Virus record (IMG/VR): IMGVR_UViG_3300020472_000111
Span: 1-31,050 of that record
Length of the DNA: 31,050 nt
From: a virus
Direction: 5' to 3' (one strand)
The translations under genes and the position numbers were made by a program. The notes below the pieces were generated by a model, which saw nothing but the letters and a program-made list of their open reading frames with translations, made no database searches and was not told where the DNA came from. Positions 5,999-27,910 of this stretch are shown one piece after another. Positions within the stretch are counted from its first letter, which is position 1, and each line of letters starts with the position of its first letter.

Positions 5999-6240
5999 AA
6001 GTTTAAAATGCCTTTACTTGTGCGTTTGATGTAGTTTAATTGCTGTGCATCCCATTTGATCTTATCCTTTAAAGGTTTAGAGATCAGTTTACCTACTGTC
6101 TCTACTTCAATCTCAAACTCTTCACAGACCGAGGCTACTCCCTCGATATAATTTATAAGACCTTGACTCTCCTTAACCCTGTCTTCGACTAGGGAAGTAA
6201 ACTTACCTTGTGTCATAAATTTCTCTTCAATTTCTTTCAT
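5995..6240 (-). CDS. gp33: Late-transcription coactivator, gp33 family
   Basis: This 81-residue protein is shorter than T4 gp33 (112). The pattern is a helix with 'INYIEGVASVCEEFEIEVE', then 'LISKPLKDKIKWDAQQLNYI', as in gp33-type coactivators. In T4, gp33 links RNA polymerase carrying the late sigma factor gp55 to the sliding clamp gp45 and so activates late genes. The C-terminus here, SKGILNL, is short and hydrophobic like a clamp-binding tail. It is placed as in T4 close to gp32. ATGA overlaps occur on both sides. T4-type late promoter sequences elsewhere in this window fit the presence of this coactivator. Confidence 0.75.
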   Translation of the reverse strand: MKEIEEKFMTQGKFTSLVEDRVKESQGLINYIEGVASVCEEFEIEVETVGKLISKPLKDKIKWDAQQLNYIKRTSKGILNL

Positions 6241-6869
6241 TGTATAACCTGAATGTTAAGGTGGGATACACCACTAGAGTTAATGATCCCTGTCGGGAAC
6301 CAATTCGCTGCTACTGTTATTCTATCACAATTTCCCTCGTTTGGGGTAGCTCTGTGTCGAATAGTAGGTGGGAAAACAATATACCTACCAGGTACAGTAG
6401 GTTCTTCATGAGTTAGGTTGAAGTTATCATCCCAGTTTGCAGAATCAAAGGGCCAGATGTTACTCTTATCATAGTAAGGGTTAGGATAGTACCACTTGGT
6501 AGTACCACTGTTACCTGATGCAAAGTAGTTGCTACTCATGAAACAGTTAGCGTGAGTGTGGTCATAGAACCAGTCACCTTTCTTATTTAGATTTGCCCAA
6601 GCAGAATTACATACCATCTTATTCGGTATACCCATACTCTCACACACTTCGGCCATGCAGTCTTGCATCCAGTCGAAAAGATAGCGCAGGTCTGGGTTGT
6701 TGTAAAGGTCACTGCCTCCCTCGGTCTGATCAACATGGACACCTTTCCACATTAGATTGGTGTCATTCTCTCTCCAAGGTAGTGTCGCAAGTATCTTAGT
6801 AGTACCTTCAATCAGATCTGGATTGATATCAAACTTAAAGAAAGGGATACCTAATACTTCTTGCTTCAT
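6237..6869 (-). CDS. 2OG-Fe(II) oxygenase-like protein 1
   Basis: This 210-residue protein is of the type seen repeatedly in cyanomyoviruses. Likely metal-binding residues are H104 and H106 (FYDHTHANC) and H172 (PPTIRHRA), with R183 (CDRITVAANW) as the probable 2-oxoglutarate-binding Arg. The block 'GRYIVFPPTIRHR' is the typical G-x-hhhFPxxhxH strand. Family members oxidise (often hydroxylate) a substrate using O2 and 2-oxoglutarate; this one's substrate is unknown. It is embedded in the replication operon with ATGA overlaps to gp33 and the exonuclease, apart from the oxygenase cluster further along. Confidence 0.8.
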   Translation of the reverse strand: MKQEVLGIPFFKFDINPDLIEGTTKILATLPWRENDTNLMWKGVHVDQTEGGSDLYNNPDLRYLFDWMQDCMAEVCESMGIPNKMVCNSAWANLNKKGDWFYDHTHANCFMSSNYFASGNSGTTKWYYPNPYYDKSNIWPFDSANWDDNFNLTHEEPTVPGRYIVFPPTIRHRATPNEGNCDRITVAANWFPTGIINSSGVSHLNIQVIQ

Positions 6870-11036: not shown

Positions 11037-11393
11037 TTATTTAGCACCCTTGCGTGGTCTGCCTGGTCTACGGTTTTCATAATATACTATGGCATCGTTG
11101 ATCACAGTCTCAAAATACTTTCGTATCTTACGTGCCTGTGGTTTAGGTATATTACTGTATGCTTCAGACATATACTTGTCACGTGCAATATACTGTGACA
11201 ATTCATCTACTATCTGAGTGACCTCAGTCATAGAAGATGAGTCTATTAATTCTTTTGTTTGTTTGCGTGTCCACTTGTTGCCAGTAAGATACGACTTCAT
11301 ATTAAAGAGGAATCTCCCATTGATCATGGCTTCATCGATAGCCCTGTCAATAATAGTATAAAGCTCTTCAGGGTTGGGATCCATGTAGGTCAT
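11037..11393 (-). CDS. Conserved protein with C-terminal AT-hook-like motif
   Basis: This is a 118-residue, largely helical protein. The last residues, RRPGRPRKGAK, form an AT-hook-like sequence (GRP core flanked by Arg/Lys) of the kind that binds the minor groove of AT-rich DNA. The rest (for example 'LYTIIDRAIDEAMINGRFLF', 'WTRKQTKELIDSSSMTE') is conserved in cyanophages as I recall, but has no known role. A regulator or DNA-architecture protein is a reasonable guess. ATGA overlap with the glutaredoxin gene. Confidence 0.7.
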   Translation of the reverse strand: MTYMDPNPEELYTIIDRAIDEAMINGRFLFNMKSYLTGNKWTRKQTKELIDSSSMTEVTQIVDELSQYIARDKYMSEAYSNIPKPQARKIRKYFETVINDAIVYYENRRPGRPRKGAK

Positions 11394-11641
11394 AGATAGG
11401 TGTTTTCTCGCAGGTATTTAACAGTTTCGGTGCAACCACCCATTTTATGTCCAGCAATGATAACTTGTGGAAAGGTAGCAGACTGTCCGAACTCTGTCTT
11501 GAATTGCTCTCTAGTAAAGTTAACATCTAATTTGTATTCTGCAAAGCCCCATCCTTTAGATTTGTAAACTTCCTTAATCTTTGTGCAAAATCCACAACCT
11601 TCTCTCGTATAGATTGCGGTGTTTCCTGGTTGTTTGGCCAT
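11390..11641 (-). CDS. grx: Glutaredoxin
   Basis: This is an 83-residue protein of the usual glutaredoxin size. The active site is C16-G-F-C19 in 'YTREGCGFCTKIKEVY'; 'ATFPQVIIAGHKMGGCTE' carries the cis-proline and the glutathione-binding GG motif. It reduces disulfides and is the likely electron donor for the phage ribonucleotide reductase whose small subunit lies at the other end of this window. Active-site variants in cyanophages are usually CPYC or CGxC. It is the first gene after the terminator at 11663-11687. Confidence 0.95.
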   Translation of the reverse strand: MAKQPGNTAIYTREGCGFCTKIKEVYKSKGWGFAEYKLDVNFTREQFKTEFGQSATFPQVIIAGHKMGGCTETVKYLRENTYL

Positions 11642-12273: not shown

Positions 12274-12867
12274 CTACTGGTACACATAGGATGAGTCTCC
12301 TACATCGACCACACCTTTAGGCAACACGTTGAATGCCAGTGAATACCTTTCATACTGAGAATAATTCTTTAGTACTCGGTGTCTTATGTTGCTAGGGAAC
12401 AATAATATAGTGCCCTTAGAAGGCACTACAACGTGATCAGTAGCATTATATTCATTATCAGTGCTAGGAAGCACGTAGACCCCTTCTGGAGGGTTTACAA
12501 ACTGAATGGGAGCACTGTCAGTATCATACTCATCGAAGTATACTACACCACTGAACCATGAATTGCAATGTGCGTGTTCATCTGCTGACCCACCACTAAG
12601 TGTGGCAGTAAACCAAGAGGTAGTGATCTGTACATCACAGTAGTATCCTATCTCACAGATAGCTTGCCTTACCTTGCGAGTAAAGTAGTCCAGGACTGAG
12701 GTCTTATTGTTTAACACATGCTTGTTAACAGTCACAGCACTCAGTCCATCCTCATCTTCCGAGAAGTCAAACTCCTGTAACATTTCTGTGAGAATATCAC
12801 AGATCTCAGGATTAATTCTCGATTGTGCTAGGGGATTTGGAAATAAGGGGTGAAGATTCCACGTCAT
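12274..12867 (-). CDS. 2OG-Fe(II) oxygenase-like protein 2
   Basis: This is a 197-residue protein. Probable iron ligands are H98, H100 (DEHAHCNSWFSGVVYF) and H163 (LFPSNIRHRV); R174 is the probable 2-oxoglutarate contact (YERYSLAFN). The N-terminal 'HPLFPNPLAQSRI' is the usual start of this phage group, which supports the start at 12867 although it overlaps the upstream gene by 56 bases. It belongs to the same HxH...H...R type as the oxygenases at 22362-27910 but stands apart from them. Substrate unknown. Confidence 0.8.
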   Translation of the reverse strand: MTWNLHPLFPNPLAQSRINPEICDILTEMLQEFDFSEDEDGLSAVTVNKHVLNNKTSVLDYFTRKVRQAICEIGYYCDVQITTSWFTATLSGGSADEHAHCNSWFSGVVYFDEYDTDSAPIQFVNPPEGVYVLPSTDNEYNATDHVVVPSKGTILLFPSNIRHRVLKNYSQYERYSLAFNVLPKGVVDVGDSSYVYQ

Positions 12868-13063
12868 TTAATGGTTCCATTCTCAAGAATTGTTCATTCA
12901 AATTATAAAAGAGTTTAAAGTGGGTAGTGTTAACCCAATAACCTTTTATGTCTGACCCATCACAGTGGTATCCATACCCTGTTACTGGTTCGTTTACTCC
13001 ATCTATTCTAAAGGTCTTATTGCTTCCAATGTAAGACCCATACTTCTCCTCCAGATTAATCAT
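12812..13063 (-). CDS. Small hypothetical protein with long 3' overlap
   Basis: This is an 83-residue protein from the ATG at 13063 (MINLEEKYGSYIG); an ATG two codons earlier is possible. It is rich in Tyr, Asn and Gly with a 'GYGYHCDGSDIKGYW' centre, and is soluble by composition. Its last 18 codons overlap the start of the oxygenase gene at 12867 in another frame. The start lies inside the last codons of the upstream gene. A CATAAATA late-type core (13137-13130) lies 67 bases upstream. I do not recognise the protein. Confidence 0.5.
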   Translation of the reverse strand: MINLEEKYGSYIGSNKTFRIDGVNEPVTGYGYHCDGSDIKGYWVNTTHFKLFYNLNEQFLRMEPLNDVESSPLISKSPSTIEN

Positions 13064-13427
13064 CGGCATCAGTGGTTTTGGTTAGTCTATCACGGAGCTC
13101 AGCTTCCTGAGCGTCTGTTAACGAACTGTTATTTATGTTGGTTTCATCACACTCTTCACGTGGGTCCACATATTCGGCCATTTTCTCCAAATTCTGCTGC
13201 AAATCTTCGGGGGGTTTCCAGTTAGGTCCCTTCGGTTTGTAATCGAGGCTCTTCACCTCTGCCAGAGGACTCCTCCAGTACTTCTGCATCTGTTTGAGCA
13301 TCTTCTTCTTACCCTTCGGATCATCCTTATACTTTTCGATGACCTTCCGAAGAGTCCTCAACTCTCTTGATGATTTCTCTAGAGATCTCTCTGCGTTGAC
13401 CTCTCTACCACTGAAACCGTTTGCCAT
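13056..13427 (-). CDS. Charged helical hypothetical protein
   Basis: This is a 123-residue, highly charged protein. Residues 12-50 (ERSLEKSSRELRTLRKVIEK then KYKDDPKGKKKMLKQMQK) are likely a coiled coil; the C-terminal half is acidic. No signal peptide or membrane helix is visible. It follows the giant structural protein by 4 bases and is therefore co-expressed with it. A chaperone or minor virion role is possible on position alone. Family not recognised. Confidence 0.6.
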   Translation of the reverse strand: MANGFSGREVNAERSLEKSSRELRTLRKVIEKYKDDPKGKKKMLKQMQKYWRSPLAEVKSLDYKPKGPNWKPPEDLQQNLEKMAEYVDPREECDETNINNSSLTDAQEAELRDRLTKTTDADD

Positions 13428-13431
13428 AATT

Positions 13432-16400
13432 TTAAGGGGGATCTGTGCACTGTGTAAGAGTTATTTTAAATCTAACTCTGAATTTTGCTTTGTCGGTACC
13501 ACTATACCATACAACTGAGTCTTTGTTGTGTGACTCTTGATAGAAGGCTTCCTTAAGACTCCTTCTTACTAGGTCTTCATTCTCCCACCAAGCAAGTTGT
13601 TTGCCTGTTGGGAATGACCAACCTGCTTCCTGATCAGGATAGTATGGTGTCGCTGAGGGATTCTCACTCGACCTATCTCTCATCGGAGGCCATGTTAGCA
13701 CAAACTCTGACCCTTTGGTGTATCCTTTACCTTGATCAATAACATCAATGACATGCACCATTGCTTGCCAGTAATGCACCTGCTTAGATGAGGTGGTCTG
13801 ATCAAAGATAACTGGATAGAATGTGATGCCTACACGTATCTTGGCAGCATCAGCATAGTTTCCACCACCAGTACCATGATAATTGTCAAGGGTATAGTCC
13901 TGTATGAATGTAACGGGAGAGAAATATGTGTCTCTTTGTGGTGCTTGTGCAGCACCATCCCATATATTATTCACCACAGTAAGGTAATGGTTGCCAATTG
14001 AGTTGGCACCTAAAGTATACCACGGTTTACTGCCTCGTGCAAACGTTGTCGGTGCTGCTTGCGTAAGGATGTCTCTGTATCCCTGTGATATATTGGTACC
14101 ACTCAGGGTTTCAAACCTAGTGAAGAGATAGTCCTCAACAAGGTGGTTGTATACTCCTGATAGATTCCTATAGTTGTAGGACTCTAAGAGAGTAGCAGAG
14201 AAGTAGTTAGCTTCAACATCATAAAGATACCCTGTATCTATGTAAGCACCAGGTAATGTAGGCATCGCACTGTTACCTATGATCCTACTCTGTCCTGGTA
14301 TCTCTGGGTTTGCTTGGAGTGATCCATGCATTGCCACTGGTATATTATTTGCCCAGACATATGTGTATGGATATCCAGGGTCAGGCACGTTGTCCTCACT
14401 CCATGTCTCAGACAGTTTACTACCACACTCCCACTCAAACTCTTGTCTGTTGGTAGGATTAAATGAGAATGCAAATCCTTCTATCTCTCCACCCTCTTTA
14501 GTAATTGGGTTGAGTGTTGGGTTACCTGTTTGTTTTGCTATCACACTATCATGTGACTGAGTGCCTAGCATTATTTTAAATGCACCCTCAAACATAGTAG
14601 TATCAATAGCATAAAGAGATGCCTCCAGTGCTATGTCACCTGTGACTGCACCTGTATCGATACTTACTACCTCAAAGGTTAACTCATCAGTTGGTTCTAA
14701 AGTAATGTCCTGATCGTATAAGTCTCTACCTATTGCGGGCCAATACTGTGCTTCAAATTGCTTAGTAAATACATCTACTCCATTCTTCTTCATCCTAAGA
14801 GTAAACTTCATGCAAGCACCATAGATGCCACCGTTAATACCACCCATAGATACAAACCTAAAGGTACCACCGACTGCTGCTGCAATAGTCTGGTTGGTAT
14901 TTAATTTGACTGAGTATTCACCATTACATGTGCCACACTCCCACTCAACATCATTACCTACCACGTTAGGGACTTTGTTACCGCAGTCCATGCGTCTCAT
15001 AACTACATCTTTAAAGCTGGCCTTGAGTATTCTAGCGTCGCATTTTACTGAAGGGTCTATCTTTCTCATCACCTTCTCAGGTGCTGCTCCTGCATAGAGA
15101 TAGCATTGGATACCCTCGTAAGTATACCCACCATAGGTCCACCCAAGTCTATGCCAGAATCTTAGGTCATCATAGTCATCGTCACCTGCTATCAAGTCCT
15201 CCCAGAATTGATTGTTTTTACCCTGCCACTTAGTCTGATCCTTCTTCATAGGATTCCATTCTCTGTCAGAGAATAGACAGTAGTTATTCTGTGCTGTAGT
15301 GATACCTACTGCACTAAAACCACCAGTGTAAGGAGCATTAAGTGGAGTGAATGTTAACTCCTGCATAATGCTGAGTGAATTCTGGCCACCACCATTAGGG
15401 ATGAGGAAAAATCCCATCGTCCCTCCAGCATACTCGTTGAGTTTTAGGCTGGTCATCCATGCATTGTATAGGTTGGTACCATTCCTAGCACTCGTTACAA
15501 TGACACGTCCATACTTAGGACCAGTCTCATCTGCTAGGTAGAAACCAATTGCGTTATCATATCCTGCTGATCCTTTCTCAACATCCATTGAGATGTTAAG
15601 GTCTGCCTTAGATTCTATAGGTATACGGTATGCCCAACGCTTAGGTATCTTCTGAGGGTTACCACCTACTATCTCACCATCAATAGTATACTTGTGATCG
15701 AAAGGATTACTGCTATGGAATCTATGTAATGCTTCTGCTTGCTCATCAGCATGTAGATAACTATTCATTGCAGCAGCAGTTGGGAAGACATGTCCTAGTA
15801 CCTCACCACCTGCCATACCAGAAGCATTCATCGATGCTCTCTCACCAGCACCTTTACTGTCAGGCTCACCAGGATTAGTAGTTAAGAATGTATCCTGCTT
15901 GACTGTTGAATAGAATCTAAACAGTGGGACAGTTACATTTGCTATAGGTTGTGCAAGAATATAGAATGCTGGTTTAGCATTAGTTAAAGTGTATCCTGAC
16001 TTGGCACCTTGAGGATCGTATGCATGGTCAGCACCTATGTTAGTAGATACAATACTAAAGTTAGCATTACAATCACTACCATGAGTATCCTTCATGCATA
16101 TTCTGGTGTTGTTATCAACAATAGTATACCCACCAGAGTTACCATTCATAGTAATAGATATGGTACCAGGACCACTGATAGCAAGTGTCTGAATCTCTTC
16201 ACCAGATCTACCAGTCCTTGTCCACTGCTTACCTCCCATCTGGATGTTATCAATAGCAACACCATGTGTGTTGGGGTTATCATTCCACTGTAGTTTGAGG
16301 ACCGCAACACCAGTGCCACTACCAGTAGCAATTAGATTACCTGATCCATCAAACGATGTCTGTATAGTGCCACTAGATAATGATGACTCATAGATTGGTA

Positions 16401-17211
16401 TCCTATCTGGGAAACAATTCTCTACACATACCTCAGTTTGGTTACCACTCCATCCATTAGGCCAGTAAGCATCACAGTTTGCCTTGGGTGGTTGCCATGC
16501 ACCACCAAGGTAAGGTCTAAACAGACAGTCTAATGCATTTCTAACACAAGTTTTGAATGGATCACCAGCTAATCCCTTATCTATATCACAGTAATATTTC
16601 TCACCAGTTTCTATATGCTCCCACCATCCTGGTGCAGGGAATCCTGGTAAACTAAAATCTTTTAATGGTCTGAGTAACTTGAGTGATAATAACTTTCTAA
16701 CCTTCTCACATTGATCTTCAGGACCAGTCTTAACAATAATATATGGATCACCCATAACAGGTGGGTGAAGAGTCAACTTCATTGGTGGCAACCAACCAAA
16801 CTCCTTGTGCATCCACGGTCCCCAAGGTGGTAGCTCCCAATCCAAACCATAGTCAGGTAACTCAGGTGGATCTATTAGATCTGGGATACCTGGCGGTGTC
16901 TTATAACATCTGTCAACTATCCTTCGTATAACATCACCAGGTTTAGGATCTGGTACCACAACAGGTGGTGGTGCTACTGGCAGTGGATTCTGCTCGTCTA
17001 ATACGTTAGGTAGGTTGTATACTGGGACACTATAACATCTCCCAACTATATTTCTTATTGCTTCACCAGGATTCAGAGGAGGTATAACATTACCTGATGC
17101 TCCAGCAGTAGGTACATTAGGATTCAACTGGTCTAATGGATTAGCTGCCAGTATCCCACTCGGTGTTGAGTAACACCTCTCTACTATATCTCTGATGGTC
17201 TCGCCAGCCAT
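13432..17211 (-). CDS. Giant virion structural protein (fibre/adhesin-like) with N-terminal triple repeat
   Basis: This 1259-residue protein opens with three copies of a 15-residue repeat, G-[ED]-x-IR-x-IV-x-RCY-x-x-P (residues 3-17, 49-63, 92-106), joined by Pro-rich linkers. Next is a Pro/Trp-rich part with many Cys (to about 275), a beta-rich domain (280-385), and a segment at about 427-515 (PLFRFYSTVKQDTFLTT...GHVF...LHRFHS) that resembles DUF5648-type carbohydrate-associated repeats. Later come two WECG[TS] modules (near 790-800 and 925-935) and a beta-rich end. This suits a tail fibre or head-surface adhesin. A CTAAATAA motif lies 20 bases upstream. The protein could carry the host-recognition part; that is inference. 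Confidence 0.7.
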   Translation of the reverse strand: MAGETIRDIVERCYSTPSGILAANPLDQLNPNVPTAGASGNVIPPLNPGEAIRNIVGRCYSVPVYNLPNVLDEQNPLPVAPPPVVVPDPKPGDVIRRIVDRCYKTPPGIPDLIDPPELPDYGLDWELPPWGPWMHKEFGWLPPMKLTLHPPVMGDPYIIVKTGPEDQCEKVRKLLSLKLLRPLKDFSLPGFPAPGWWEHIETGEKYYCDIDKGLAGDPFKTCVRNALDCLFRPYLGGAWQPPKANCDAYWPNGWSGNQTEVCVENCFPDRIPIYESSLSSGTIQTSFDGSGNLIATGSGTGVAVLKLQWNDNPNTHGVAIDNIQMGGKQWTRTGRSGEEIQTLAISGPGTISITMNGNSGGYTIVDNNTRICMKDTHGSDCNANFSIVSTNIGADHAYDPQGAKSGYTLTNAKPAFYILAQPIANVTVPLFRFYSTVKQDTFLTTNPGEPDSKGAGERASMNASGMAGGEVLGHVFPTAAAMNSYLHADEQAEALHRFHSSNPFDHKYTIDGEIVGGNPQKIPKRWAYRIPIESKADLNISMDVEKGSAGYDNAIGFYLADETGPKYGRVIVTSARNGTNLYNAWMTSLKLNEYAGGTMGFFLIPNGGGQNSLSIMQELTFTPLNAPYTGGFSAVGITTAQNNYCLFSDREWNPMKKDQTKWQGKNNQFWEDLIAGDDDYDDLRFWHRLGWTYGGYTYEGIQCYLYAGAAPEKVMRKIDPSVKCDARILKASFKDVVMRRMDCGNKVPNVVGNDVEWECGTCNGEYSVKLNTNQTIAAAVGGTFRFVSMGGINGGIYGACMKFTLRMKKNGVDVFTKQFEAQYWPAIGRDLYDQDITLEPTDELTFEVVSIDTGAVTGDIALEASLYAIDTTMFEGAFKIMLGTQSHDSVIAKQTGNPTLNPITKEGGEIEGFAFSFNPTNRQEFEWECGSKLSETWSEDNVPDPGYPYTYVWANNIPVAMHGSLQANPEIPGQSRIIGNSAMPTLPGAYIDTGYLYDVEANYFSATLLESYNYRNLSGVYNHLVEDYLFTRFETLSGTNISQGYRDILTQAAPTTFARGSKPWYTLGANSIGNHYLTVVNNIWDGAAQAPQRDTYFSPVTFIQDYTLDNYHGTGGGNYADAAKIRVGITFYPVIFDQTTSSKQVHYWQAMVHVIDVIDQGKGYTKGSEFVLTWPPMRDRSSENPSATPYYPDQEAGWSFPTGKQLAWWENEDLVRRSLKEAFYQESHNKDSVVWYSGTDKAKFRVRFKITLTQCTDPP

Positions 17212-17235
17212 GTATTACATACACCTACACCTTAT

Positions 17236-17322
17236 TTAGTGAGGGTCATAGTGTTTAACTATTGAATACCCTAACGCTAGAGCGATCAATCCAATACAGA
17301 TCAGAGTTAAAAGTAAATGCAT
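17236..17322 (-). CDS. Tiny single-helix membrane peptide
   Basis: This is a 28-residue peptide starting MHLLLTLICIGLIALALGY and ending IVKHYDPH: one membrane helix with a short polar tail. It starts 2 bases after the halogenase-like stop (TGA-TT-ATG), consistent with re-initiation. The size recalls single-helix photosystem subunits such as PsbI, PsbM or PsbT, and psbA is the second gene upstream, but the sequence does not match any of these that I remember. Whether it is translated is uncertain. Confidence 0.45.
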   Translation of the reverse strand: MHLLLTLICIGLIALALGYSIVKHYDPH

Positions 17323-17324
17323 AA

Positions 17325-18470
17325 TCACCAGTTGTTTCTTAGTAGTGCTTTGTAATCTTGCTTTGTTTCCATGTTGCAATAAGTAGCGATGACTGATAGG
17401 AAACTGAAGTAACTATAGTTGTAAGCACTTCCGTTTGATAACCGTCTCCACTTCTCATTCTTCGCTTCATCTATTATGTTATTGAATACTCTACAAGGTT
17501 GGTAGAGATCCTTAGCATACTGCCAGAAGGGTGTGTCATAGTTAGACCCATGTGCATAGTGATAGAGAAGGAAGTTTGCATTCTCTTGGATGTCTCGTTG
17601 ATTTTCATCAATGATATCCTGTAGTATACCACCCTTCATAATATATTGCATACATCTTTGTATCCATACAAGGTAACCTGTTATACTTGTTGCCTCCATT
17701 GGTTCAATGAAGAAATATTTGTTACCATTCAAGAAGATCCTATCCTCCATGACAGGTCTCTTTGCCATGTAATTATGGAATGATCTCCAACCAATTATTT
17801 TATGCTCTCCAAACTGCTCTTCAAAATTCTCTAGTGCTGTAGCATCATCTGTAATCTCACTGTTAAACATATACCCTACTGATGTCCTGCTCTGCAATGG
17901 AATGACAAATGTCCATCCATCTTTAGTAGCAACAGTCTCAGTGGTGCAGAAGACTCTACTATATGGATCAGTTTCGGCCAGTAGTACTCTGTTGAGAGGA
18001 TTTTGCAACGTGATATAGTTATCAAACGTTTGACTTGAGCACTCTCTACCACTGAAGGGTGACCCTCCACAATCAAAGATGTAATCAGCATCAATATTAT
18101 ATCCTACCTTCTTCGGTATGCACTTAAAGTATTGTGACATATCATCACAAAACATCTTAGGATCAAAGTGCATTGCAACTCTATTAAAACCAAAGTCATG
18201 GAACCAATCCTGACCCCATCCTCTGTACTCTATCCCTGTCTTAACTGTCTGATCCCAGTTGGCATCTCTCCATGAGGGCCAACACTCAGGGTTTGTTGTC
18301 TGAAATTCTGTAATAAGATCTAATAGATTAGGCCACGACCCTGATCCCACTGGTTCAATGGGTGCATCTGGATCATAATAGATTTCGATCTCGGTGGCAG
18401 GGTAGTGTGCTTTCCATGCCATTGCAGTAAGGATACCTGCCAATCCTTTACCAATGATAGCAACTTTCAT
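17325..18470 (-). CDS. Flavin-dependent halogenase-like protein, short divergent form
   Basis: This 381-residue protein is shorter than typical tryptophan halogenases (about 500-540). It has an N-terminal FAD-binding GKGLAG (7-12), a Lys in 'QTVKTGIEYRGW' (K77) matching the catalytic Lys region, a W-T-F-V-I-P motif (186-191) where halogenases have WxWxIP, and 'FFIEPMEATS' (E259) matching the conserved Glu. Halogenases of this class make HOCl from FADH2, O2 and chloride and chlorinate an indole through the Lys. The altered Trp motif leaves halogenation or simple monooxygenation open. The start is pressed against the psbA terminator, with no Shine-Dalgarno. Confidence 0.75.
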   Translation of the reverse strand: MKVAIIGKGLAGILTAMAWKAHYPATEIEIYYDPDAPIEPVGSGSWPNLLDLITEFQTTNPECWPSWRDANWDQTVKTGIEYRGWGQDWFHDFGFNRVAMHFDPKMFCDDMSQYFKCIPKKVGYNIDADYIFDCGGSPFSGRECSSQTFDNYITLQNPLNRVLLAETDPYSRVFCTTETVATKDGWTFVIPLQSRTSVGYMFNSEITDDATALENFEEQFGEHKIIGWRSFHNYMAKRPVMEDRIFLNGNKYFFIEPMEATSITGYLVWIQRCMQYIMKGGILQDIIDENQRDIQENANFLLYHYAHGSNYDTPFWQYAKDLYQPCRVFNNIIDEAKNEKWRRLSNGSAYNYSYFSFLSVIATYCNMETKQDYKALLRNNW

Positions 18471-18518: not shown

Positions 18519-19601
18519 TTAGCCAATAGCAGGTGCTAGTAGTGCAACTTCTGTTACCTCAGCAGCAGCGAGATCAAGTGGGAAGTTGTGAGCATTACGC
18601 TCGTGCATTACTTCCATACCTAAGTTTGCTCTGTTGAGAACGTCTGCCCACGTTGGAACTACCTTACCAGAACTATCAATGATAGATTGGTTGAAGTTAA
18701 ATCCATTCAGGTTGAATGCCATCGTGCAGATACCCATACTAGTCAACCAGATACACACCACAGGGAATGTACCAAGGAAGAAGTGAAGACTTCGACTGTT
18801 GTTGAACGATGCATACTGGAAGATCAAACGACCAAAGTATCCATGTGCAGCAACGATGTTGTAGGTCTCTTCTTCTTGACCAAATTTGTAACCGTAGTTT
18901 TGAGATTCATTATCCGTAGTCTCACGAATAATTGAAGATGTAACCAATGAGCCATGCATAGCAGCAAACAAAGCACCACCAAACATACCCGCCACACCTG
19001 CCATGTGGAATGGATGCATGAGGATATTATGTTCCGCCTGGAAGACAAACATAAAGTTGAACGTGCCTGAAATACCCAGAGGCATACCGTCACTGAATGA
19101 TCCTTGTCCGAAAGGATAGACCAAGAAGACAGCAAAGGCCGCTGATACTGGTGCGGAGTAAGCAACACAGATCCAAGGGCGCATACCCAAACGATACGAT
19201 AACTCCCACTGTCTACCCATGTAAGCAGAGATTCCAATAAGGAAGTGGAAGATTACTAACTGATATGGACCTCCATTATACAACCACTCATCTAGAGTAG
19301 CAGCTTCCCAGATGGGATAGAAGTGTAATCCAATAGCGTTAGAAGATGGAACGACAGCACCAGAGATGATGTTGTTACCATACATGAGTGAACCAGCAAC
19401 TGGCTCACGGATCCCGTCGATATCGACAGGAGGAGCAGCAATAAATGCAACTATGAAACAAGTAGTAGCAGCAAGCAAACATGGAATCATTAAGACTCCG
19501 AACCAACCGACATAGATTCTATTCTCGGTTGATGTTACCCACTCACAAAACTCGCTCCAATTTTGCAATGGTGACTGCTCTCTTCTTTGAAGAGTTGTCA
19601 T
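18519..19601 (-). CDS. psbA: Photosystem II D1 protein PsbA
   Basis: This 360-residue protein is full length with no intron. It is the reaction-centre core that holds chlorophylls, plastoquinone QB and the manganese cluster in the thylakoid membrane. Visible residues include the Yz region ([16 protein letters not shown]), 'FQAEHN' (E189/H190 equivalents), '[15 protein letters not shown]' with the C-terminal Mn ligands, and a cleavable tail after DLA. In the '[11 protein letters not shown]' segment it has Gln at the position equivalent to 130 in Synechocystis numbering, the low-light D1:1 type. Compared with host D1, 'LIGISAYMG' replaces the usual LIGIFCYMG. It is driven by a perfect sigma70-type promoter and ends in its own terminator. 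Confidence 0.98.
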
Positions 19602-20618: not shown

Positions 20619-20905
20619 TACTTTTTATTCGAGACCCACTTGCCATTGACTAACTTCTTAACCTCACCTTTCCTGAGTCCTGTGCCCTTTGCTTTCTTAA
20701 CAAACTCTTTATAGGTGGGGCTGTCTTTTGAATGCCCAGTCTTCTTACTACCGTGCATCATACGATCCTTACGATACTTTAACTCTGCTTCCTTTTCAGC
20801 AGACTTCTTCCTCTCTTTCTCATTGTCCCAGCTATCTCCATACTTTTCCCACAACCAAGGTTTAAACCTGGCCTGTTTGTCAAAAATTTCTGGGAGTAAA
20901 TTCAT
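20618..20905 (-). CDS. Small basic protein
   Basis: This is a 95-residue, Lys-rich protein (KERKKSAEKEAELKYRKDRM, KKTGHSKDSPTYKEFVKKAK) ending VNGKWVSNKK. The composition suits nucleic-acid binding, but no known motif is visible. The ATG overlaps the long halogenase gene's stop (ATGA), and a TATAAATA sequence sits 22 bases upstream inside that gene, which could give it separate late expression. Confidence 0.6.
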   Translation of the reverse strand: MNLLPEIFDKQARFKPWLWEKYGDSWDNEKERKKSAEKEAELKYRKDRMMHGSKKTGHSKDSPTYKEFVKKAKGTGLRKGEVKKLVNGKWVSNKK

Positions 20906-22365
20906 GAGAAGATAGTATCTTTGAGGTATTTATACATTGTAGGTAGAGACTCAGCTAACTTCTTCCTCTTTTTATAGAGGTGCTCCCACCCATCTACCTT
21001 ACTAGAGGGGACTGGTGGGTAATCAAAGTACTGATATGACCTCTTCCTGACACTAGTATACCCTGCTCCACCCAAAATGTAAAGGATGGGGTGTGCCTCA
21101 TGTTGAACTGGATCACCCCCTACCATATGAAACTGGACTAGATCATGAGCACCTTCGATATTATACTTTGTATCCTGTGTTACATGCTTCCAGAATGGTG
21201 TGTCTGTCCTACGTGAATAATAATAGTGTGCTTCAACAAATTCTTTCCACCCATCACAATGCTCATTCATATTGTGATTGAATCTATCTCTCATAAACCG
21301 ATTGATACCAGGCTCCTCTCTTAAACTATCAACAAGAGCAAGGATACCATGATGTGCTGAGAATAATGAGGTAGATTCTAATGGTTCAATGAAACTATAT
21401 GACAGTCCAATCATCACACAGTTACCAACCCATGCTTCCTTCTGTCTACCATTCCTAAACTTAATTACTTTACCGTCACCAAACTCTTCCTTCGCTTCCT
21501 CTTCAGTCTGAAACTTACTAGAGAATACATATCCCTCTGAAATATATTCCCACGTTGGTATAGTCCACTGCCATCCACTACTCATACCCTTTGCGTTGGT
21601 GTATGGTACCATCTCCTTATCTTTATCAATATAATCTCTCTTCCTTACGATAGCAGTGTCAGTTGGAATAGATTCAAATGGTACCCAAGTAGTCAGAGCA
21701 CCACCTAGTGTAGATGTTTGCCCAGTACAGTCGAGATAGAGATCTGCATCAATCGACGGTGCCCTGAGATCGTACGGTCCTCTTTCCAAAAAGACACCTG
21801 ATATTCCTCCTTGTCCATAACTAACCGAGTTAACCTTACTATCAAGAACTCTAACGTTACTACAAAAAGTTTCTTGTAGGTAGGTAGAGAACTTACTTCC
21901 GTCGATGTGAAACGATCTGTCTTTAGAAATATCATAAGGAATAAGTAATGAATTATTCAATGGCATCTTCTTCTCTTCTGCCACCGTTACAAATGGCATG
22001 AAGACATCAGCAAATGGTGGTGGATTATATCCATATGCTTTTGCTACCATCCAGTCATGGAATGTAGCATCAGTTAGATTCAAAGCAGGTGCTTGACCAT
22101 TAGGATAATGGAAGACATGATCTATCTCAGTAAAGTTTTCAAACCTACTACTAGATTTGTAGGTTGCTCTAGCAGCAGTAAGGAATGTCTTGTCATCTAT
22201 ACCCATATACTTCAGGTATTGATTGATGTGTGGTGTTGTAGACTCACCCACCCCAATAGGATCACCACCTTTTACTACGGTGATGTCATAATCTGGGAAT
22301 GTTTTAGCGAGTGCTGCTGCTGCCATCCATGCAGCAGTCCCACCACCTACGATAACTATCTTCAT
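20902..22365 (-). CDS. Flavin-dependent tryptophan halogenase family protein
   Basis: This is a 487-residue protein with the family's set of motifs: FAD-binding GGGTAAW (7-13), 'VGESTTPHI' (39-47), a catalytic-type Lys in 'ATYKSSSRFENF' (K70), the halogenase signature WQWTIP (265-270) and 'IEPLESTS' with E330. Known enzymes chlorinate or brominate free tryptophan or an indole; a flavin reductase partner is needed and none is seen in this window. PrnA-like genes have been noted in some cyanophages. It heads a run of oxygenases (ATGA overlap with the gene at 22362). Confidence 0.88.
   Translation of the reverse strand: MKIVIVGGGTAAWMAAAALAKTFPDYDITVVKGGDPIGVGESTTPHINQYLKYMGIDDKTFLTAARATYKSSSRFENFTEIDHVFHYPNGQAPALNLTDATFHDWMVAKAYGYNPPPFADVFMPFVTVAEEKKMPLNNSLLIPYDISKDRSFHIDGSKFSTYLQETFCSNVRVLDSKVNSVSYGQGGISGVFLERGPYDLRAPSIDADLYLDCTGQTSTLGGALTTWVPFESIPTDTAIVRKRDYIDKDKEMVPYTNAKGMSSGWQWTIPTWEYISEGYVFSSKFQTEEEAKEEFGDGKVIKFRNGRQKEAWVGNCVMIGLSYSFIEPLESTSLFSAHHGILALVDSLREEPGINRFMRDRFNHNMNEHCDGWKEFVEAHYYYSRRTDTPFWKHVTQDTKYNIEGAHDLVQFHMVGGDPVQHEAHPILYILGGAGYTSVRKRSYQYFDYPPVPSSKVDGWEHLYKKRKKLAESLPTMYKYLKDTIFS
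20927..20934 (-). promoter_or_regulatory. Late-type promoter candidate inside the halogenase 3' end
   Basis: The minus strand reads TATAAATA (20934-20927), which also encodes Tyr-Lys-Tyr near the halogenase C-terminus. It is 22 bases before the ATG at 20905, so the transcript would have a very short leader. The codons could produce the match by chance. Confidence 0.35.
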
Positions 22366-22892
22366 CTATCAAACCTTATATTAAATGATATGCTAATGCG
22401 TGTATGCTCTGTGACATTGGTACGTATACCATGCATTAAGTAACCAGGGAATAGTATTAACTTACCTTGCTTTGGTGGCATTGAAATAGTATGTGGTTGA
22501 TTAGACCAGATACTAGTGGTCGATGCTAAGTTAGGTGTCTGGAAAAATAAATCTCCATCATCTCCTGTAGTCTTGTAATAGTATACACCACTTAGATCTG
22601 AATGTCCATGATGATGTGCATGAGCATAGTGTCCTGGCTCTAGTCTTGCCATCCAAGATGCTTGTTGATACCATCCCTCATTGCCAGTGTAATTCCATAT
22701 GTGATTCCTTAATTCCTTTGTGAAACTAGGAGGTAATATCTTCTCTTGAAAATTTGGATCAGATATAAGATGAGTATCCCATAGGTTATGCCACTTGATA
22801 CCCCTCTCTATCTCTGCAAACTCCTCTTGTATGGTGGCATAACTTGACACCTCACCTTCGTATATCTTAGTAGGAAATATATCTTTGATCAT
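22362..22892 (-). CDS. 2OG-Fe(II) oxygenase-like protein 3
   Basis: This is a 176-residue protein. A His-rich 'HYAHAHHHGHSDLSGVYYY' (residues 88-106) supplies the first ligands, H154 (FPGYLMHGI) the distal one and R165 (HTRISISFNI) the likely 2-oxoglutarate contact. This is the TIGR02466-like arrangement (HxH, SGVYYY, FPxxxxH, RxSxxFN). It sits next to the tryptophan halogenase gene (ATGA overlap), so it may act on the same substrate; that is inferred. Confidence 0.82.
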   Translation of the reverse strand: MIKDIFPTKIYEGEVSSYATIQEEFAEIERGIKWHNLWDTHLISDPNFQEKILPPSFTKELRNHIWNYTGNEGWYQQASWMARLEPGHYAHAHHHGHSDLSGVYYYKTTGDDGDLFFQTPNLASTTSIWSNQPHTISMPPKQGKLILFPGYLMHGIRTNVTEHTRISISFNIRFDR

Positions 22893-23503
22893 AATTTAAT
22901 AGTGGTATCAACTCCGATGTTTCCTGAGACACTTACCCTCTCCTCTTCACAGTTATAGAAAGGATATACTATATGATTTAGTTTACTTGGGAAGAATAAC
23001 ATCACACCCTCTGCCCTCTGCCCTAGGTTGTAGTCATAGTATCTAATCTCTCCTAGGTTATCTGTATAAACAAACTTAAAGGATGATTTAGATGGCATGT
23101 TGCTTGGGTTATCTTTATTCTGCTCTTCCCAATCAATAGGTATCTTAATCCATATCACAAAACTAAAGATGCCAGTGTGAAAATGTAATGGATTAAACTC
23201 GTGTTGCTTCTGATAGTTAACCCACCAATCACTCATACGATATGGATGGTGTTGGTTAAGAGGTACATTATTACCTAGGTTACCAAACTCTTGAGTATAA
23301 GTCTGAATTAATTTGACAATAGTATTATTAAAGAACCAATTGTCCTTATCATGTAAAGGAATACTCTCCTTTATGTTACCAGCAAGAGATATCCTAGACC
23401 CTGATGGCATGTCAATACACTCCTTGACATGATCAAACTCCTGCTCGGATAGTTTATGCTCCAACCACCCATAATTCTTGGGGACAATAACTTTAGTGCT
23501 CAT
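22889..23503 (-). CDS. 2OG-Fe(II) oxygenase-like protein 4, divergent
   Basis: This is a 204-residue protein. The core is more diverged: 'FNPLHFHTGIFSFVIWIKIP' (H107, H109), 'MLFFPSKLNHIVYPF' (H178) and 'EEERVSVSGNIG' (R189). The order and spacing still match a double-stranded beta-helix oxygenase. The N-terminal 80 residues are not obviously related to its neighbours. ATGA overlaps on both sides place it in the same translational chain as the halogenase. Confidence 0.72.
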   Translation of the reverse strand: MSTKVIVPKNYGWLEHKLSEQEFDHVKECIDMPSGSRISLAGNIKESIPLHDKDNWFFNNTIVKLIQTYTQEFGNLGNNVPLNQHHPYRMSDWWVNYQKQHEFNPLHFHTGIFSFVIWIKIPIDWEEQNKDNPSNMPSKSSFKFVYTDNLGEIRYYDYNLGQRAEGVMLFFPSKLNHIVYPFYNCEEERVSVSGNIGVDTTIKL

Positions 23504-23772
23504 ACTTTATTTGGGAAGCGTTCCTTATGCTTCTCCCATGCCTCTAGTATAGCACTACATGCCATCTGAAAATAGTCTCCACCATATGCTGCTACTTCAT
23601 CCTGTAATGGATCTTCTTTCGTAGGAATATACTTGTCAAGTTTACCACTCTCTACAAACTGGTGCGAAAAGTTATAGACTTCTGTAGTAATAGGTATGTG
23701 TTTTGAAGCGAAGCATCCTAAACAAATCTTCCTTTCATTTAATCTCTGCTCCATTCGATAGTCTTCATTCAT
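23500..23772 (-). CDS. Small hypothetical protein with CxxC
   Basis: This is a 90-residue soluble protein: a charged N-terminus, then 'KICLGCFASKHIP' with one C-L-G-C pair and a third Cys near the C-terminal 'FQMACSAILEAWEKH'. One CxxC is not enough to claim zinc or iron binding. It lies between two oxygenase genes with ATGA overlaps, so it may be an accessory factor. Family not recognised. Confidence 0.6.
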   Translation of the reverse strand: MNEDYRMEQRLNERKICLGCFASKHIPITTEVYNFSHQFVESGKLDKYIPTKEDPLQDEVAAYGGDYFQMACSAILEAWEKHKERFPNKV

Positions 23773-24416
23773 ACCTTGACCCAGTGCTCCTTCATGTCAT
23801 CGTTTATAGTATTAATATACCCATCCTCAGTCACAATGTCAAATGCTATTGTGATTCTTTCTTGATCGTCCACCACCTTATCAGTGCCATGACTGACCCA
23901 ACTAGGGAACAGTGTGATCTTACCCACCTCATTGTGTGATGACCAAGGGTCACCCCCATACGGATTGTAATAATTCGTATTAGTATCAGTCACTTGGACA
24001 CACACGTGACCACTCAGGTATCCATATGGATCCTTACCATGTGAGTGCACTGCTATCTGATCACCCTTCCTCATAACATTAGCCCAACACTGGACATAGA
24101 TTGGTGGTGGATCAGGTGCACCCAACTCTGTAACAAATTTGTCATGGGTCTTCTTGATAGCAGCCTTTAAAGGTATAGCACTACCAAACGTGAGTAGGTT
24201 ATATTTATTTGACCTAGCAGTTAGACTCTTGGCACCTAGTTTGGTACCCCAGTCATCCTCAAACTCATACTCATCTATTATACTCTGCTCTCTATCAAGT
24301 ATCTCTTTCTTTAAATCTTCTAAGGATATACCTACGTTAGCTTCATAAAAATAATACTCCCACGCTGCTGCGAAAGGAGTATAAGTTTGTCCACTAGTGA
24401 ATCTAATTATTCTCAT
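23769..24416 (-). CDS. 2OG-Fe(II) oxygenase-like protein 5
   Basis: This is a 215-residue protein from the ATG at 24416 (MRIIRFTSGQTY); two in-frame TTG codons upstream are less likely starts. The core is 'GDQIAVHSHGKDPYGYLSGH' (H124, H126), 'ITLFPSWVSHGTD' (H176) and 'QERITIAFDIV' (R187). A 'NYYNPYGGDPW' loop precedes the distal His, as in related phage enzymes. The start lies inside the end of the small gene at 24403-24561, and the stop overlaps the CxxC protein. Substrate unknown. Confidence 0.8.
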   Translation of the reverse strand: MRIIRFTSGQTYTPFAAAWEYYFYEANVGISLEDLKKEILDREQSIIDEYEFEDDWGTKLGAKSLTARSNKYNLLTFGSAIPLKAAIKKTHDKFVTELGAPDPPPIYVQCWANVMRKGDQIAVHSHGKDPYGYLSGHVCVQVTDTNTNYYNPYGGDPWSSHNEVGKITLFPSWVSHGTDKVVDDQERITIAFDIVTEDGYINTINDDMKEHWVKV

Positions 24417-24561
24417 CAACAATCCTTAGTTTATTATATGTGTCTTCATCCCTCATCATCTTACTGATGCTCATAAGGAAGTCGGCTTTCATTCTACTAA
24501 GGTTCCTGTATTTTTGCAAGGGGATCCACTCCTCCTTAACATAATATTCTAAACGATACAC
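24403..24561 (-). CDS. Small protein, GTG start, in frame behind another stop
   Basis: This 52-codon frame begins with GTG at 24561: VYRLEYYVKEEWIPLQKYRN then LSRMKADFLMSISKMMRDED, ending IVDENN. It is in the same frame as the 32-residue gene before it, only one codon past its TGA. The composition (Tyr/Lys/Met-rich, no stops) looks coding. A GGAGG at about 24535 lies inside the frame, not before the start. It could be a separate protein, or a read-through extension of the upstream peptide. Confidence 0.5.
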   Translation of the reverse strand: MYRLEYYVKEEWIPLQKYRNLSRMKADFLMSISKMMRDEDTYNKLRIVDENN

Positions 24562-25887: not shown

Positions 25888-26129
25888 TTTGATTTCCTCC
25901 GTAGGGTTTGTAAGTGGCTGATGATCTCGTCTCTGACCCACATCAACTCATTATAGCACTTTTGGTTGTGAGCGCAAGCACGTAATGAATTGTCTGGTTT
26001 ATGGACAGATTCAATAAAGATATCGAGTGCTCGATTCCATCTCTCATCCTGTCCTTCTTTAGGAATTGATCCTTGATCTTTCATTGCTAGTTGATATTGT
26101 GATAGTAGGTACTCATATTGGTCAGACAT
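25884..26129 (-). CDS. Small helical hypothetical protein
   Basis: This is an 81-residue helical protein (YEYLLSQYQLAMKDQGSIPK, RWNRALDIFIESV, 'CAHNQKCYNELMWVRDEIIS'). Similar short proteins of the type 'ERWNRALDxxIE' are frequent in cyanophages. No catalytic motif; two Cys. It overlaps the oxygenase before it by 8 bases and the repeat protein after it by ATGA. Confidence 0.62.
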   Translation of the reverse strand: MSDQYEYLLSQYQLAMKDQGSIPKEGQDERWNRALDIFIESVHKPDNSLRACAHNQKCYNELMWVRDEIISHLQTLRRKSK

Positions 26130-26736
26130 AAGCGAACCAACCAGTTATGATCTGCTTCTCTGATGTGTGACTGACTCTTCCTCTATGGAAGTGAGTCCAT
26201 TCAGCGGGCCAGATAACAGTATAACCTTTCTTTGCTGGTACGTAAAGGTCTTGATGATACCATTCAGTACCACCATCAGGGACATCATTAAGATATGTCA
26301 TGAAGACTAGGTGTCTAAAGGCAGTACCAGGTAGAGCATTCAACCTCTCGGTATGCCACTCCTTAAACCCACCACCTTTAGGATACCATTGCATACTTAA
26401 TGGTTCCACAATCCTAAACCTAGATGTATTGCAGAAAGGAAACTCCTTTATATAATCCTCCAATACATCTTGTAAGTGACCCAGATAATCTTGGACATGA
26501 GGCATTGCTATCTGATGAGGCACTAACATATCCATAGACTCTTTAAGTTCAGGATTAGTAGCGACCTCACCTTGAGCATAGACCTGTCCCTCTTGGACAC
26601 GTAGGAAGTGTTGATGCTCCCAAAATTCTAATAGATGATCACATATTTCATCAGGTATCTGTCTACCCCACACGAAATGTGTGCTCTTCTTACAAAGTCT
26701 GTCTTTATATACAGTAAACTCTTCAGGTAAACTCAT
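26122..26736 (-). CDS. 2OG-Fe(II) oxygenase, prolyl-4-hydroxylase-like
   Basis: This is a 204-residue protein of a different subtype from the other oxygenases here. It has the classical facial triad as H128-x-E130 (GGGFKEWHTERL) and H184 or H182 (EWTHFHRG), with K194 (SEKQIITGW) as the 2-oxoglutarate-binding Lys. The segments 'HLVFMTYLNDVPDGGTEWYH' and 'AKKGYTVIWPAEW' are those of P4H-type hydroxylases, which act on proline or other residues in proteins or small molecules. In cyanophages such genes are common, with substrate unknown. ATGA overlap with the next oxygenase upstream. Confidence 0.88.
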   Translation of the reverse strand: MSLPEEFTVYKDRLCKKSTHFVWGRQIPDEICDHLLEFWEHQHFLRVQEGQVYAQGEVATNPELKESMDMLVPHQIAMPHVQDYLGHLQDVLEDYIKEFPFCNTSRFRIVEPLSMQWYPKGGGFKEWHTERLNALPGTAFRHLVFMTYLNDVPDGGTEWYHQDLYVPAKKGYTVIWPAEWTHFHRGRVSHTSEKQIITGWFAYV

Positions 26737-27287
26737 AACGCATTAAAACTGATTACTATTCTATCATCCATTGTATTTACCTCATCATCCTTACCATGTC
26801 TTAACCAACTTGGAAACAATATCAAGGTACCATTAGAAACCTTAAGGAATTGATGCTCCATATTATATGGAGTAACCTTTTCTCTAGGGGTAAAGTATAT
26901 GTATGGGTTAGGGTTGTGGAAGTATAACTTACAATCCTCATCCACATTTATATACAATGCTCCTGAGACAAGAGACTGTGGATGACAGTGCTCTTTAAGT
27001 ACACTATTCTTATTCTGAATGTTAGACCAAACATATTGTATGAGACTAGGTACGTTACCTACCTTCATGTTATAGTCATCCACCATGCTCTGTAGTTTAA
27101 CATGTATGTCACTACTAAGCAATGGGTAAGTCTCATGGGGGTTGTGTGTACTGAAACCATTACCCTTAATAGTCTGATGATGGTTGTGTTTAATCTCTTT
27201 AATCCTTTTCTTCAAGTAGAAGGTTTCTAAATCTGTTATAGCATTAGGTATAACTTCTATAGGCACAGGAAATAGATTGAAGGTCAT
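26733..27287 (-). CDS. 2OG-Fe(II) oxygenase-like protein 7
   Basis: This is a 184-residue protein. The core is 'SVLKEHCHPQSLVSGALYIN' (H100, H102), 'LYFHNPNPYI', 'TLILFPSWLRHGKDD' (H164) and 'DDRIVISFN' (R176). The N-terminus 'NLFPVPIEVIPNAI' is usual for this group. It lies between two other oxygenases, with ATGA overlaps. Substrate unknown. Confidence 0.82.
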   Translation of the reverse strand: MTFNLFPVPIEVIPNAITDLETFYLKKRIKEIKHNHHQTIKGNGFSTHNPHETYPLLSSDIHVKLQSMVDDYNMKVGNVPSLIQYVWSNIQNKNSVLKEHCHPQSLVSGALYINVDEDCKLYFHNPNPYIYFTPREKVTPYNMEHQFLKVSNGTLILFPSWLRHGKDDEVNTMDDRIVISFNAL

Positions 27288-27910
27288 GACTTTCGTAAGT
27301 CTGCCATCTTAGACACCACTCTGATAGGATCACCTTCCCACAGAGAAAACTTAACTAGATCTACATGACCTCTAATATTATATGAAACTATAGTCCTTCT
27401 CTTGTCAGATCTATTTGCTGGTGCTTCATGCATTATAGTTGAAGGGAAGATTACCATGTCTCCCTCTTGTACAGGTGGTTGGAAGGTCTCTAGGTTACCA
27501 TTCCAAGGGTTTTTAAATGGTGAATAGAATTGAGTAGGTTCATGTACCTCTGGATCAAACTCCACGTACATGACACAAGACCACCCACTGTGTCCATGAG
27601 TGTGTACCTGATGCTGTACCCCTTTATAATATTTCTGGTACCACATGTCAGTAAACTCTACTCTCCTCTCGCTGGAGAAGTCTGCGATGTATGGTTTAAT
27701 TACACTGATTATTGTCTGTCCATAGGGAGGTAACTCTTTAACATCCCGTCCAGCATTAGCAAAGAAGTCTGTATACAATCCATGATCATCTGGATTACAT
27801 TGATCCTCAGTCTCCTCTGGCAATGCATCTAATATTTTCTTCTTGTTTAGTTCCCAATTCGCTATCTCATAATGGATGATAGGAACCTCAAACATACTAT
27901 GAACTGCCAT
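27284..27910 (-). CDS. 2OG-Fe(II) oxygenase-like protein 8
   Basis: This is a 208-residue protein. The core is 'VQHQVHTHGHSGWSCVMYVE' (H103, H105), 'TQFYSPFKNPW', 'MVIFPSTIMHEAPAN' (H161) and 'KRRTIVSYNI' (R171/R172). It overlaps the nuclease gene upstream by 14 bases. It is the first of the two HxH-type oxygenases that precede the P4H-like one in transcription order. Confidence 0.82.
   Translation of the reverse strand: MAVHSMFEVPIIHYEIANWELNKKKILDALPEETEDQCNPDDHGLYTDFFANAGRDVKELPPYGQTIISVIKPYIADFSSERRVEFTDMWYQKYYKGVQHQVHTHGHSGWSCVMYVEFDPEVHEPTQFYSPFKNPWNGNLETFQPPVQEGDMVIFPSTIMHEAPANRSDKRRTIVSYNIRGHVDLVKFSLWEGDPIRVVSKMADLRKS

Follow-up and report, generated by a model that had tools for sequence, protein, structure and literature searches.

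A late-promoter-linked, mosaic, adhesin-like protein of T4-like cyanophages with repeated N-terminal Cys peptides as putative docking tags

A 1259-residue protein of a T4-like marine cyanophage begins with three short Cys-containing peptides, which are conserved among its relatives and confined to a single gene. The protein is encoded in the stretch of 31,050 nucleotides analysed here (the window). We lean towards the view that this mosaic, adhesin-like protein is expressed late and is probably a minor fibre of the virion, with the N-terminal peptides serving as multivalent docking tags. In related phages, a different Cys peptide is found at the same place in the protein encoded at the same locus.

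Results

The window is a 31-kb T4-like cyanophage fragment that matches cyanophage DNA best, at about 81–87% identity; an Rfam search of the window gave no match. The ORF boundaries given in the earlier note are exact, and the gene lies on the minus strand (Table 1). The protein matches the PHROG profile phrog_26996 with an E-value of 3.4e-213, in four stretches of which the best covers residues 505–1254. The PHROG entry has no functional annotation and membership therefore names no mechanism. Full-length relatives with about 30% identity are present in four isolates, S-SZBM1, P-TIM40, P-RSM6 and S-WAM1, the 1098-residue S-SZBM1_92 being a clear orthologue, and in IMG/VR at least 212 stretches carry a gene for a relative. 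The proteins of the four isolates resemble the window protein in locus, body, Cys-peptide array and late-promoter motif, but carry other inserted modules and arrays of 3–5 copies, the first unit being reduced to CY in some of them.

Table 1. Features of the 1259-residue protein and its surroundings in the window.
Feature	Residues	Window position	Strand	Evidence
1259-aa protein, phrog_26996		13432..17211	(-)	ORF listing, PHROG profile, homologues
Cys-peptide unit 1, GETIRDIVERCYSTP	3-17	17161..17205	(-)	profile match 17110-17205, E 1.1e-15
Cys-peptide unit 2, GEAIRNIVGRCYSVP	49-63	17023..17067	(-)	profile match 16978-17067, E 1.7e-16
Cys-peptide unit 3, GDVIRRIVDRCYKTP	92-106	16894..16938	(-)	profile match 16888-16938, E 5.2e-6
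Cys-rich segment	166-275	16387..16716	(-)	42-sequence alignment A5
Shuffled beta module	279-391	16039..16377	(-)	common to phrog_773/26970 proteins
DUF5648-like segment	412-451	15859..15978	(-)	weak Pfam match, E 2.5e-4
DUF4114-like domain	595-685	15157..15429	(-)	weak Pfam matches; overlooked in the earlier note
T4-type late-promoter motif CTAAATA		17233..17239	(-)	starts 28 nt upstream of ATG
Small partner gene, 123 aa, phrog_24392		13056..13427	(-)	conserved directly downstream

The three 15-residue repeats are located where the earlier note had placed them, and the linkers between them are indeed rich in Pro (19–32%). Ungapped comparison of the units with one another gave BLOSUM62 scores of 59, 58 and 52. 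When the N-terminal 140 residues were shuffled 200 times, the best pair reached 37 (mean 23.5, sd 4.4); in 25 shuffles of the whole protein it reached 38. Besides the three Cys units, no further internal repeat stands out when the protein is compared with itself. Among 61 distinct phrog_26996 N-termini, arrays hold three CY sites in 53 cases, four in 7 and five in 1, with a spacing of mostly 43–50 residues; by eye, the fourth CY of two of them (L068 and L104) appears incidental. The unit consensus is P-[AG]-[EQD]-x-I-[RQ]-x-[LI]-V-x-R-C-Y. Across the 171 units, R directly precedes CY in 95%, V occupies position -3 in 93% and I position -7 in 92%; CY itself is found in 100% by construction, because it served as the search key. 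A separate 42-row alignment shows C13, Y14, C59, Y60, C102 and Y103 to be invariant. Units 1 and 2 are followed by a PNxLDxxNP-like motif. Mean pairwise identity among the relatives is 68–73% for the unit cores, 55–66% for the PNxLDxxNP motif, 50% for the Cys-rich segment and 28–34% for the linkers. Conserved islands of this kind, set among Pro-rich linkers that evolve fast, are what short binding motifs look like in an alignment.

The RCY unit profile matches no gene but this one in each of eight RCY-type records. As the earlier note had supposed, the repeat corresponds to no described module in Pfam, NCBIfam or the sequences of the PDB: the NCBIfam search gave no match, nor did PDB sequence searches with the protein, the body profile and the unit profile. 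Among 29 viral loci, nearly all of them known phrog_26996 contigs, the N-terminal array was not seen as a module of another protein. A genome search with the array returned two matches, both in MAGs named Euryarchaeota and both phrog_26996. The MAG contigs PAZU01000056.1 (L142) and NYST01000002.1 (L143), both of which bear that name, hold a phrog_26996 cyanophage gene, probably as a result of binning contamination.

For the N-terminal 290 residues, AlphaFold2 (42 sequences) predicts helices at residues 3–14, 48–56 and 91–103 in an otherwise low-confidence chain, the model as a whole being of low confidence (mean pLDDT 54, pTM 0.25). The view of the units as short helical peptides is consistent with these predictions, at low pLDDT and amid disorder. 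In a helix, I(-7), L/I(-4), V(-3), C(0) and Y(+1) would share one face, and the three window units have hydrophobic moments of 0.51–0.75, compared with a protein mean of 0.26. The Cys-rich part that the earlier note saw after the repeats is real: C168, C208, C222, C229, C262 and C266 are invariant in the 42-sequence alignment and C246 nearly so. This segment is compact, AlphaFold2 models part of it poorly, and it is a possible disulfide or zinc domain.

The remainder of the protein (residues 261–1259) was modelled with a mean pLDDT of 78 and a pTM of 0.53 as a chain of domains, nearly all beta. Its best matches in a viral structure library are orthologues, followed by cyanophage PA14 proteins. 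Searching the PDB for the fold gave diffuse beta-sandwich matches, for instance to pilus adhesins and tail-tip proteins; none is a confident match to a solved structure (best probability mostly <0.4, query TM <0.1), and we did not count them as evidence of family. The DUF5648-like segment stays below the Pfam gathering cut-off in the window protein (21.7 against 25) and passes it in S-SZBM1 (25.5), so that the assignment made in the earlier note is weak here and better founded in the orthologue. The DUF4114-like domain scores 19.3 bits against a cut-off of 27, and 24.9–27.2 in orthologues; the P-TIM40 relative is named 'DUF4114 domain-containing protein' in RefSeq. Two proposed WECG[TS] modules (residues 757 and 927) were abandoned: they have no internal similarity and the second Cys is not conserved. 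The protein terminates in a conserved QESHN end.

In the window, psbA (18519–19601) and a halogenase gene precede the 1259-aa gene, which is followed by the small gene and a glutaredoxin-like ORF (11390–11641), an order that matches the isolate loci of the phrog_26996 relatives. In every cyanomyovirus examined, the large gene is followed by a small gene and then by DUF680/glutaredoxin; psbA, often with psbD, lies upstream wherever the fetched stretch reaches that far. The small gene directly follows the large one, with overlapping or near-adjacent ends. A single pairwise comparison of the small proteins of the window and ACG-2014d revealed a related 54-residue core (E 2e-7), and similarity is weak or absent in S-SSM5 and S-SM1. 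By eye, the window also contains an unusually dense cluster of oxygenase- and halogenase-like ORFs: 2OG-Fe(II) oxygenase/prolyl-hydroxylase-like ORFs at 6237–6869, 12274–12867, 22362–22892, 22889–23503, 23769–24422 and 26122–27910, and two tryptophan halogenase-like ORFs at 17325–18470 and 20902–22365.

At loci without RCY units, the large protein begins instead with one to four peptides of the FGP[VI]CD type, in which the Cys is likewise invariant: one copy in S-SSM5, P-SSM7, S-E7 and S-SM1, two in S-SSM6b and ACG-2014d, and four in S-H38. The FGP[VI]CD profile (A4) has the syntenic gene as its sole match in each of five other records and no match in the window record, and none of the 13 records searched has matches to both profiles. 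Several of these proteins, for instance S-SM1_226, S-SSM5_215 and that of S-E7, are T4-GC1038 'PA14 domain-containing' proteins (phrog_773), and the S-H38 protein is related to them. All of these share with the window protein the locus, the small downstream gene, the late-promoter motif, beta modules and an N-terminal Cys peptide, but differ in carrying FGP[VI]CD rather than IRxIVxRCY and PA14 rather than DUF4114 matches; Pfam finds no PA14 domain in the window protein, whose match to phrog_773 is limited to the 279–391 module. This module is present in both groups, yet missing from the S-SZBM1 orthologue and replaced in P-RSM6. The body is therefore mosaic, whereas the N-terminal Cys-peptide array is kept. 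The occurrence of RCY and FGP[VI]CD peptides at one locus suggests swappable docking tags. The label 'major head protein' that PHROG and RefSeq give to the 279–391 module (phrog_773/phrog_26970) was treated as a misannotation, because another gene, S-SZBM1_176, encodes the major capsid protein; on the PA14-type proteins beside psbA the label looks wrong as well, and it has spread to RefSeq.

For the cyanophage late promoter the consensus NATAAATA has been published, and T4-type late promoters drive mainly virion genes (PMC2984593). Of 46 distinct family members, 45 have [CA]TAAATA at 18–40 nt before the start codon, compared with 20 of 633 other ORFs at the same loci and 2% of shuffled upstream sequences; the one member without it (L105) is fragmentary and its start doubtful. 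The motif precedes the gene in 9 of 9 isolate loci, against 12 of 168 neighbouring genes, and is also present in the S-SM1 and S-E7 loci. Across fourteen diverse genes, TAAATA and the ATG are the only invariant parts. The C form used in the window (CTAAATA) is likewise found ahead of the portal, tail-completion and hub genes of S-SZBM1, a phage in which the motif is carried by 9 of 33 structural genes versus 3 of 66 others. This enrichment makes it most likely that the window gene, although surrounded by photosynthesis and metabolic genes, is transcribed late.

Two other elements were noticed upstream of the ATG. A strong, terminator-like hairpin with a T-run lies directly after the motif and just before the ATG in S-SM1 (L146:8435-8479), and similar hairpins occur in S-SSM5 (L034), S-H38 (L038), S-E7 (L144) and L080-type loci; two folded examples have -12 to -13 kcal/mol and z of about -4. 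Such a hairpin may stop read-through from psbA/psbD, with late transcripts starting inside it and escaping. In the window, an unlisted single-TM microprotein of about 28 aa, MHLLLTLICIGLIALALGYSIVKHYDPH (17236–17322, minus strand), ends within the late-promoter motif, and many close relatives have TM peptides of 25–28 aa at the same place that end in YNPH or similar.

Discussion

The earlier note had called the protein structural. The published proteome of S-SZBM1 virions lists 30 detected proteins (PMC9146016 Table 1), and S-SZBM1_92 is not one of them. The hub lysozyme, S-SZBM1_61, is missing from that table too, so low-copy parts evidently escape it. The S-SM1 paper mentions the PA14 gene (T4-GC1038) apart from the one virion protein of its gene set (PMC3037559), so the counterpart does not seem to have been reported from the virions of S-SM1; in the deposited record of that phage it is called just 'PA14 domain-containing protein', not structural, and the S-E7 record labels the T4-GC1038 cluster structural without stated evidence. 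The S-SZBM1 and S-SM1 lists thus speak partly, though not decisively, for absence from virions. A late protein that is not part of the virion but acts within or upon the infected host, or is set free as a soluble adhesin at lysis, with the Cys peptides tethering it to a cytosolic host protein, would account for these lists and for a gene placed among photosynthesis and metabolic genes, and late expression is by itself no proof of incorporation. We nevertheless find this rather unlikely: by eye, the N-terminus shows no sign of a signal peptide, leaving an adhesin-like body no obvious export route, the late-promoter class is one used mainly for virion genes, and peptides at the extreme N-terminus fit the logic of phage fibres. 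Long tail fibres are stated to be missing from S-SZBM1, S-WAM1, P-RSM6 and P-TIM40 (PMC9146016), and these are the four isolates with RCY arrays, a coincidence to be read as a correlation only, because the four are mutually related.

Two further readings concern what the N-terminal part does. The conserved Cys could form inter-chain disulfides or bind metal and so crosslink or trimerise the protein, a role also compatible with a docking fibre. Conservation makes it possible, as the Cys is invariant in all three units and in the FGP[VI]CD peptide, with seven more conserved nearby, and a glutaredoxin gene lies close downstream; we still regard it as very unlikely, since phages assemble in a cytosol that is reducing, the Cys sits with I, L/V and Y on the apolar side of the helix predicted, the varying copy number of the units allows no fixed pairing, and nrdC is a general T4-like gene. 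Judged from the predicted helix, the Cys could simply pack into a groove. The array might otherwise bind not a virion socket but the small downstream protein, as an oligomeriser or a Tfa-like chaperone. Tail-fibre genes often have a small partner gene directly after them, and here one is present at every locus examined. This binding seems quite unlikely, however, in that a related small-protein core is kept at loci with the FGP type, so that the small protein does not track the type of peptide.

We thus return to the docking fibre. Its N-terminal 110–165 or so residues would be mostly disordered, with three short amphipathic peptides, each of which, on docking its I/L/V/C/Y face in a partner groove, probably becomes a short helix; several of them on flexible linkers would provide avidity. 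The most likely anchor would be a low-copy site on the virion, from which the C-terminal chain of beta domains (the exchangeable module, the DUF5648-like and DUF4114-like parts and the QESHN end) would reach outward to bind material on the cell surface, the product of the small downstream gene being a putative assembly partner. The attachment role proposed earlier is in keeping with peptides at the very N-terminus, with an adhesin-like body and with the late-promoter motif, while the location on the virion is one that we infer. The idea of three equivalent sites finds no support, as the copies vary from 3 to 5 and other phages use a different Cys peptide, in 1–4 copies, at the same locus. A broader and more tentative proposal, which we would not yet call probable, is that IRxIVxRCY and FGP[VI]CD, two unrelated Cys-centred peptides in 1–5 copies, are interchangeable docking codes that plug mosaic adhesins from a single conserved late locus into two different putative sockets; copy number would tune avidity and shuffling of the C-terminal modules would change what is bound.

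Known systems offer parallels. In the adenovirus fibre, a short conserved motif on a flexible N-terminal tail docks into the penton base; the likeness lies in the short N-terminal docking peptide, putative in our case, but there is one motif per chain in a trimer and no homology. In CsoS2 and EPYC1, short helical peptides repeated in a disordered linker give multivalent binding of Rubisco, an arrangement close to that predicted here although the partner and the sequences differ and there is no homology. The long tail fibre protein gp37 of T4 is likewise late, large, variable and adhesin-type, with a small assembly-partner gene after it, but lies at another locus, and the window protein is a putative virion component. 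Towards solved fibres, the window protein has no PDB sequence match, only diffuse folds of low TM.

Little is known about how Prochlorococcus and Synechococcus are recognised by T4-like marine cyanophages, hence the interest of this locus. The peptides are short enough to be synthesised as bait, so that their partner can be sought directly. A conserved late locus amid photosynthesis genes, encoding a variable adhesin-like protein with a candidate docking peptide, offers a concrete lead.
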